51,570 nucleotides of DNA from Halorubrum saccharovorum DSM 1137. Lineage in GTDB: Archaea > Halobacteriota > Halobacteria > Halobacteriales > Haloferacaceae. This document shows positions 26,648 to 31,086 of this stretch, in pieces. Both the position numbers and the translations under genes were made by a program. A model generated the notes under the pieces. That model saw only the letters and a program-made list of their open reading frames with translations. It was not told the DNA's origin and searched no databases. Within the stretch, counting starts at the first letter, position 1; the number at the start of each line of letters is the position of its first letter. The stretch lies in NCBI RefSeq assembly GCF_000337915.1, contig NZ_AOJE01000057.1, positions 178,645 to 230,214 of the forward strand, read 5' to 3'.

Positions 26648-26720
26648 GCCCGGATGGTGTAGTGGCCCATCATACGACCCTGTCACGGTCGTGACGCGGG
26701 TTCAAATCCCGCTCCGGGCG
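26648..26720 (+). tRNA. tRNA-Asp (GTC)
   Basis: 73 nt. The acceptor stem GCCCGGA pairs with TCCGGGC, with discriminator G. The anticodon loop CTGTCAC gives anticodon GTC, and the T-arm is GCGGG-TTCAAAT-CCCGC. No intron and no encoded CCA. Confidence 0.97.
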
Positions 26721-26749
26721 TCCCCACGCTTCGGGGTCTGTCGCTGTTT

Positions 26750-26822
26750 GCCCGGATGGTGTAGTGGCCCATCATACGACCCTGTCACGGTCGTGACGCG
26801 GGTTCAAATCCCGCTCCGGGCG
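26750..26822 (+). tRNA. tRNA-Asp (GTC), second identical copy
   Basis: All 73 nt are identical to the copy at 26648-26720, separated by a 29-nt spacer. It is followed directly by TTTT, a likely terminator. Confidence 0.97.
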
Positions 26823-26939
26823 TTTTCAACGACCAACACGGCGAGCGTAGCGAGCCGTTCGTCGAAAACGGTCGCAAGAGGGTTTGAATCAAGGAGTGAA
26901 GCGAGCGGAACGACTGAGGTTCAAATCCCGCTCCGGGCG
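26823..26939 (+). repeat. tRNA-Asp 3'-end remnant with hairpin
   Basis: Downstream of the second tRNA-Asp, 22 nt of the tRNA 3' end (GGTTCAAATCCCGCTCCGGG plus CG) recur at 26918-26939 with no tRNA body. The segment between contains a hairpin ACGGC/GCCGT with an 11-nt loop (26838-26858). This has the form of an attachment-site remnant. Confidence 0.8.
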
Positions 26940-30573: not shown

Positions 30574-30646
30574 GTCCTGGTAGGGTAGTGGACTATCCTC
30601 TTGGCTTGCGGAGCCAGGGACCGGAGTTCAAATCTCCGTCAGGACG
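30574..30646 (+). tRNA. tRNA-Arg (GCG)
   Basis: 73 nt. The acceptor stem GTCCTGG pairs with TCAGGAC (one G-T), with discriminator G. The D-arm is GGGTAGTGGACTATCC, and the anticodon stem TTGGC/GCCAG encloses the loop TTGCGGA, giving anticodon GCG. The T-arm is CGGAG-TTCAAAT-CTCCG. It reads CGC/CGU arginine codons. No intron. Confidence 0.93.
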
Positions 30647-31020
30647 CTCACTTTGCGGCTGCCTCACTTCGTTCGGCAGCCGCTGCGTTCGGTCCTGACG
30701 TGCCTCGCGCTCACTTCGTTCGCGCGAGACTCCGTCAGGACGTTTTTGGACCCACCAAACGGCAAGCATCGCGAGCCGTGCGTGAGTCCGAAAAACTCCG
30801 CGGAGATTTGAGCAGGAAAGTCGCAGCGGCCGAGCGAAGCGAGGCCGACCGTCTTTCCGAGTTCAAATCTCCGTCAGGACGCTCACTTTGCGGCTGCCGA
30901 ACGAAGTGAGGCAGCCGCTGCGTTCGGTCCTGACGTGCCCCACGCTCGTTTCACCCGCGTGGGACTCCGTCAGGACGTTTTCGGACGCACCAAACGGCGA
31001 GCACCGCGAGCCGTGCATGC
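30647..31020 (+). repeat. Tandem tRNA-Arg-associated repeat with 11-nt-loop hairpins
   Basis: A 235-bp period. Unit 1 is 30647-30881; unit 2 starts at 30882 and fades before 31030. Each begins CTCACTTTGCGGCTGCC. A 23-nt copy of the tRNA-Arg 3' end sits at 30859-30881, and shorter copies (GACTCCGTCAGGACG) at 30728-30742 and 30963-30977. Both 96-bp subunits (30647-30742 and 30882-30977) contain two hairpins with 7-bp stems and 11-nt loops. Other hairpins with the same loop length lie at 30759-30779, 30827-30847 and 30994-31014. Confidence 0.85.
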
Positions 31021-31086
31021 GTTCGAAACCCGTCGCTCGGTCGTCACGACCCAACTTTGAAGAAACCGGACGAGGTGCAACGCGAC

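Follow-up and report, generated by a model that had tools for sequence, protein, structure and literature searches.

Integron attC sites are imperfect palindromes with inverted core sites (core GTTRRRY) that stand in arrays of units. In DNA, triloops of the form C-GNA-G have an unusual stability, and GA steps that face each other after a pyrimidine form sheared pairs; the d(GCGNAGC) DNA mini-hairpins were reportedly described by Hirao and others. A d(GCGNAGC) mini-hairpin has been used as a stability tag (PMC4686876). Template-switch mutations at hairpins were described by Monttinen and Loytynoja for rRNA and yeast genes; in other genomes, both compensatory changes and inverted loops result from template switching (PMC8794818, PMC8604942). 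Haloarchaeal proviruses, in turn, integrate at tRNA tails of about 22 nt (PMC3119063). A limited literature search for prior descriptions of tRNA-linked hairpin arrays in haloarchaea found none, which is a weak negative.

The window is the whole stretch of DNA that was analysed, 51,570 nt from Halorubrum saccharovorum DSM 1137 (GCF_000337915.1, NZ_AOJE01000057.1:178,645-230,214, forward strand). Behind its tRNA-Arg(GCG) gene, a 170-nt sequence is present twice, at 30624-30793 and 30859-31028; the copies are 86% identical and are spaced 235 apart. The original prediction had placed a tandem unit of two homologous 96-bp subunits after this tRNA (30647-30742 and 30882-30977). Both subunits exist, but they are only part of the 170-nt repeat and were started slightly late: the true start is inside the tRNA, in the 3' part of the T arm, so that the second copy has the whole 24-nt tail GAGTTCAAATCTCCGTCAGGACGC. 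The features of this locus, and of a second array in the window, are the following.

30574-30647, + strand: tRNA-Arg(GCG) gene (ARAGORN; Rfam RF00005, 47.7 bits)
30624-30647, + strand: first direct tail copy, which is the tRNA-Arg(GCG) gene's own 3' tail (from tail matches)
30655-30683, unstranded: hairpin H1, stem GCGGCTGCC/GGCAGCCGC, with the GA-cap GAACGAAGTGA on the - strand
30692-30700, - strand: inverted tail fragment GTCCTGACG (from tail matches)
30704-30728, unstranded: hairpin H2, CTCGCGC-TCACTTCGTTC-GCGCGAG, a perfect stem
30730-30747, + strand: short direct tail fragment CTCCGTCAGGACG (30730-30742), then a terminator-like TTTTT (T-stretch as terminator: PMC7237163)
30743-30795, unstranded: hairpin H3, TTTTTGGAC..GTCCGAAAAA
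30801-30873, + strand: hairpin H4 (type B), with inverted tail at 30801-30811 (- strand) and direct tail as its 3' arm; core AGTCGCAGC-[GGCC GAGCGAAGCGA GGCC]-GACCGTCT
30859-30882, + strand: the 24-nt tRNA 3' tail a second time, complete and identical
30890-30918, unstranded: H1', exact reverse complement of H1 (inverted match, 100%)
30927-30935, - strand: second occurrence of the inverted tail fragment GTCCTGACG (from tail matches)
30939-30963, unstranded: H2', CCCACGC-TCGTTTCACCC-GCGTGGG, a perfect stem
30965-30981, + strand: short direct tail fragment (30965-30977) and TTTT
30978-31028, unstranded: H3' and the end of the repeat
26648-26939, + strand: second array, with tandem tRNA-Asp(GTC) genes (26648-26720 and 26749-26823), a GA-capped hairpin (cap at 26843-26853), a type-B hairpin and a tail copy (26918-26939)

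Along the tRNA-Arg locus the tail pieces strictly alternate in direction (+ - + - + - +), and each gap between them holds a hairpin. The 381-nt region folds far better than its dinucleotide shuffles on either strand, with z = -12.6 on the + strand and z = -11.5 on the - strand. The identity between H1 and the inverse of H1' extends over all 29 nt, and hence the loop is flipped; the other 24 H1 units are unflipped, and this single exact flip is known from one draft assembly. The flipped H1' had been overlooked in the original prediction, as had the tail in the second copy and, within the 11-nt loop of H2, two base pairs inside a GA/GA internal loop. The draft assembly contains apparent adapter sequence and N at other tRNA-linked arrays. 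Behind tRNA-Val(TAC) (L056, contig C21), CTGTCTCTTATACACATCT and its inverse resemble transposase-adapter sequence left in the assembly, and behind tRNA-Gly(GCC) (L055, contig C20) about 70 nt are repeated around N, probably an assembly join within hairpins.

The second hairpins were predicted to have different stems that each pair perfectly, with 11-nt loops; this was checked at 30704-30728 and 30939-30963 and is correct, and the two pairs said to be compensated between H2 and H2' are both fully so. Covariation in a larger sample had been proposed as the test of the idea. Among 13 distinct H2 sequences, 117/117 pair cells are standard (100%), both sides have changed at 5/9 pairs, and the covariation score is 0.62, a value reached in 0/500 shuffles, which score 0.23. 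Covariation, the lack of which was to count against the prediction, is therefore present.

The stems change in blocks, and whole blocks distinguish even sister species. The numbers of species pairs that differ at 0, 1, 2, 3 and 4 of the seven stem pairs are 75, 42, 87, 94 and 2, the species pairs not being independent of each other. Loci L021 and L023, for instance, have flanks that are 3.4% different and stems that differ at 3/7 pairs, with no mispair. Such multi-pair changes without intermediates are what is expected of a template-switch hairpin. Structured RNA should also leave a wobble bias, since G.U, unlike A.C, would be tolerated in an RNA transcribed from the tRNA-sense strand. Stems downstream of tRNAs contain 29 G.T and 20 A.C mispairs in about 5,400 pairs, small counts from a stem finder whose bias towards perfect stems affects G.T and A.C alike, and in capped hairpins G.T is about as frequent as A.C. 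No clear excess of G.T, and thus no strand-specific tolerance of G.U over A.C, was found in these stems, which favours DNA copying.

The 11-nt loop itself is structured. Its one-strand consensus, C-GA-N-C-GNA-G-N'-GA-G, comprises a closing C-G pair, two GA steps opposite each other, two Watson-Crick pairs and, as triloop, GNA. Among 77 distinct sense-strand caps, the closing pair is C-G in 67, and the second inner pair is C-G in 61/61 of those that pair, while the first inner pair is G-C, A-T or C-G. Loops of 11 nt were observed 266 times against 98 expected, with at most a small excess at other lengths. The DNA downstream of tRNAs (47.9 kb) holds 99 capped hairpins (apical loop 3-7), the DNA upstream of them (47.2 kb) holds 1, and 603 kb of other DNA hold 49; the 99 downstream caps lie on the tRNA-sense strand in 76 cases and on the opposite strand in 23. 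In the window there are five capped hairpins with stems of at least 4 bp, each of them closely behind a tRNA; a Markov model expects about 0.03 on each strand. The DNA energies that the folding program assigns to the caps are only modest. A kink-turn or kink-loop was considered for this structure and rejected, as a 3-nt bulge is missing from the GA/GA loop and the inner pairs show the covariation of genuine pairs.

The original prediction covered one locus; the class-wide pattern and the tRNA-tail repeats came with the present analysis. Hairpin arrays linked to tRNAs form a class that extends across the Halobacteria, and this locus belongs to it; in the class, the layout (tRNA 3' tail) - hairpin - (inverted tail) - GA-capped hairpin - (tail copy) occurs one to three times. 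In the window's genome, about 16/48 tRNA genes are followed, at a distance of 76-210 nt, by a repeat of 12 nt or more (mostly 19-24 nt) of their own 3' tail, and in a genome of another family (G056) this is so for about 11/32 sampled tRNAs. Upstream of the tRNAs of these two genomes there are no own-tail copies, except where tRNA genes are in tandem (tRNA-Asp). Different families have their arrays behind different tRNAs. Written with its sequences, the general layout is tail - hairpin A - inverted T-loop sequence GGATTTGAAYC - core - GGTTCAAATCC and acceptor tail. That the inverted piece is specific to the local tRNA holds only weakly as a general rule, since matches extend past the shared T-loop complement by a mean of 3.0 nt for own tails and 2.3 nt for other tails.

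When the pattern GGATTTGAAYC-N26-56-GGTTCAAATCC was scanned in 84,980 species, at least 80 stretches were obtained, and 76/80 of the matches listed are from Halobacteria. The remaining four of those listed are a Verrucomicrobia tRNA itself, two Bifidobacterium sites of the prophage-att type and one Woesearchaeote. At least 65 loci, non-Halobacteria L136 and L151 included, have an upstream tRNA and a copy of 15 nt or more of that tRNA's tail. The hairpin pattern is found in 127/194 Halobacteria genomes and its reversed control in 0, and the distance between tRNA and tail copy is 22-214 nt. Exact matches to the pattern number 0 in the window's own genome because its hairpins are variants; the pattern misses some types. 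A plasmid search with the whole locus returned no match, and among the Rfam covariance models run on the locus only the tRNA itself scored above cut-off.

Several related arrangements were seen along the way. At L151, a Woesearchaeota tRNA-Ser(CGA) is followed by inverted and direct tail copies around a hairpin, in the same layout as in Halobacteria. Bifidobacterium prophage and genome contigs (L240-L244, L137 and L140) hold palindromic tRNA-Met-like tail sites, both inverted and direct. At tRNA-Phe(GAA) (L063/L004), a downstream tail copy is accompanied by a repeated piece of the anticodon region, CTGAAGATCGAGCTGTCCCCC. Dispersed over several contigs of the window's genome (L069-L073 and L075) is an element with several hairpins and a length of about 300 nt, GGCGCGTGCC..GACGAGGCTGGGGAGG..GGAAGTCGCAGC-hairpin-GACCGTCTTCC..CGGCTGGGGCTTTGGAGG, which shares the type-B core and has no adjoining tRNA tail; an Rfam search of this element gave no family, only a tRNA.

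The number of units is variable. Across 30 genomes the orthologous tRNA-Arg locus carries 1, 2 or 3 tails, which amounts to at least nine changes on a weakly supported tree with few well supported forks. In G087, three tandem [hairpin-hairpin-tail] units stand behind tRNA-Asp. In G098, a hairpin with the tRNA-Asp tail stands behind tRNA-Thr and is followed by another hairpin and a decayed Thr-like tail.

The original prediction took the compensated pairs to imply selection for, or copying through, the folded form. Pairing is indeed maintained, but the evidence leans to copying, and RNA selection is the less likely half of that statement. On balance, we think it probable, with considerable reservation, that the compensated stems come from template switching at the DNA level together with recombination at the tail repeats. 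A strand would fold at its cap during replication or repair, provided that the cap, with its GNA mini-hairpin of a kind very stable in DNA, folds in the DNA of the cell. A template switch would then copy one arm onto the other, whereby several pairs could change at once and the loop could flip, and the tail repeats, by putative recombination at the T-loop sequence, would let units be gained, lost and moved between tRNA loci. DNA copying is favoured because the stems change in blocks, wobble bias is lacking, folding is strand-symmetric and one loop is flipped, although this flip was seen only once, in a draft assembly. Against a pure DNA process stands the sense-strand bias of the caps (76:23), which a purely symmetric one does not predict. 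The type-B core AGTCGC...CGTCT keeps its mismatches across loci and families, and this suggests a factor that recognises the core. The strand bias, the conserved mismatches and the strong folding of the 381-nt region could be explained by an RNA-level element, in which the hairpins are transcribed behind the tRNA as a multi-hairpin terminator, a trailer-processing signal or a small RNA, and pairing is under RNA selection. T stretches terminate transcripts in Haloferax (PMC7237163), and T-rich tracts follow the tRNA end by no more than 14 nt in 63/156 cases and come after the tail copy in 27/91, compared with 118/2808 background windows (4%); a tail copy therefore resembles a tRNA end that was copied together with its terminator region. 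However, the T tract often precedes the hairpins, which may thus lie beyond the terminator, and the antisense strand folds equally well. As there is also no clear excess of G.T over A.C and no Rfam family, and the block changes and flipped loop do not fit, we regard the RNA-level element as possible but rather unlikely.

Two further explanations concern mobile DNA, and we hold both to be improbable. The tail copies could be scars, that is, old attR sites that remained after the loss of viruses or plasmids integrated in the tRNA. Haloquadratum prophages in tRNA genes leave tRNA duplications of 22 and 43 nt (PMC3119063), the size of most tail copies, and the tRNA tail is duplicated at both ends. 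Yet the 22-214 nt between copies leave no room for a gene, and neither a mobile element with an integrase nor remains of one were found between them. The hairpin pattern is absent from halovirus contigs, phage records gave no match, and the sole good plasmid match lies on a haloarchaeal megaplasmid, not a virus. A viral att site was rejected as an identity for the hairpin, with no haloviral match to it, and so were hairpins at distant attR sites, as far copies of the tRNA-Asp tail are nearly absent in 59 genomes. If tRNA tails were the target of a small mobile element of the non-autonomous kind (MITE-, PATE- or SMR-like), this would account for the related cores at six non-tRNA places in the window's genome, for the Asp tail at the Thr locus of G098 and for the differences between families in which tRNAs bear arrays. 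But the arrays end in the tail of the local tRNA, not in constant termini, and nearly all copies are behind tRNAs; dispersed copies with constant ends were not found, only the core recurring elsewhere, and no link to a transposase was found. Quite unlikely, in our view, is an integron-like system of Halobacteria at tRNA genes, in which [hairpin - GA-capped hairpin - tRNA tail] units fold as single-stranded DNA, a recombinase excises, multiplies and inserts them at T-loop sequences, and spare 3' ends absorb integrating elements. That spare tRNA 3' ends serve as landing sites, so that integration spares the tRNA, is only a guess.

If DNA-level template switching is the cause, the arrays warn that even perfect covariation, which usually counts as proof that an RNA fold is functional, can arise through copying of DNA. 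The arrays offer a large natural test set, as they are found in most Halobacteria and at many tRNA genes per genome, and the strand test of G.T against A.C can separate RNA from DNA causes. They also show that tRNA 3' ends, where archaeal viruses land by preference, have dynamic arrays of their own copies beside them.

In comparison with the described systems, the Bifidobacterium prophage tRNA-Met att sites (L240-L244) also have inverted and direct T-loop sequence around a hairpin, but they are parts of bacterial prophages, with neither a GA-cap nor an array behind the tRNA. The tail duplications of haloarchaeal proviruses (PMC3119063) likewise repeat about 22 nt from the tRNA 3' end, but they enclose a mobile element of 5-48 kb with an integrase, whereas here a stretch of about 20-215 nt with hairpins and no gene is enclosed. 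The PATE, MITE and SMR elements of Haloquadratum are likewise short, palindromic, haloarchaeal and devoid of a transposase gene, yet they have constant ends and scattered targets, while the arrays end in the neighbouring tRNA's tail (PMC3119063). Like integron attC sites, the arrays consist of units with imperfect palindromes and inverted core sites, but the core sequence differs, being GGTTCAAATCC here. The d(GCGNAGC) mini-hairpin has the same C-GNA-G triloop as the cap; it is known as an isolated stable oligonucleotide, whereas here the triloop is embedded in a GA/GA-capped stem. The published template-switch hairpins are without repeated tRNA tails and are not haloarchaeal tRNA-linked arrays, but they resemble the present hairpins in that several compensating changes occur at once and the arms are homogenised; their inverted spacers or loops would have a counterpart in the one flipped loop of the draft assembly.
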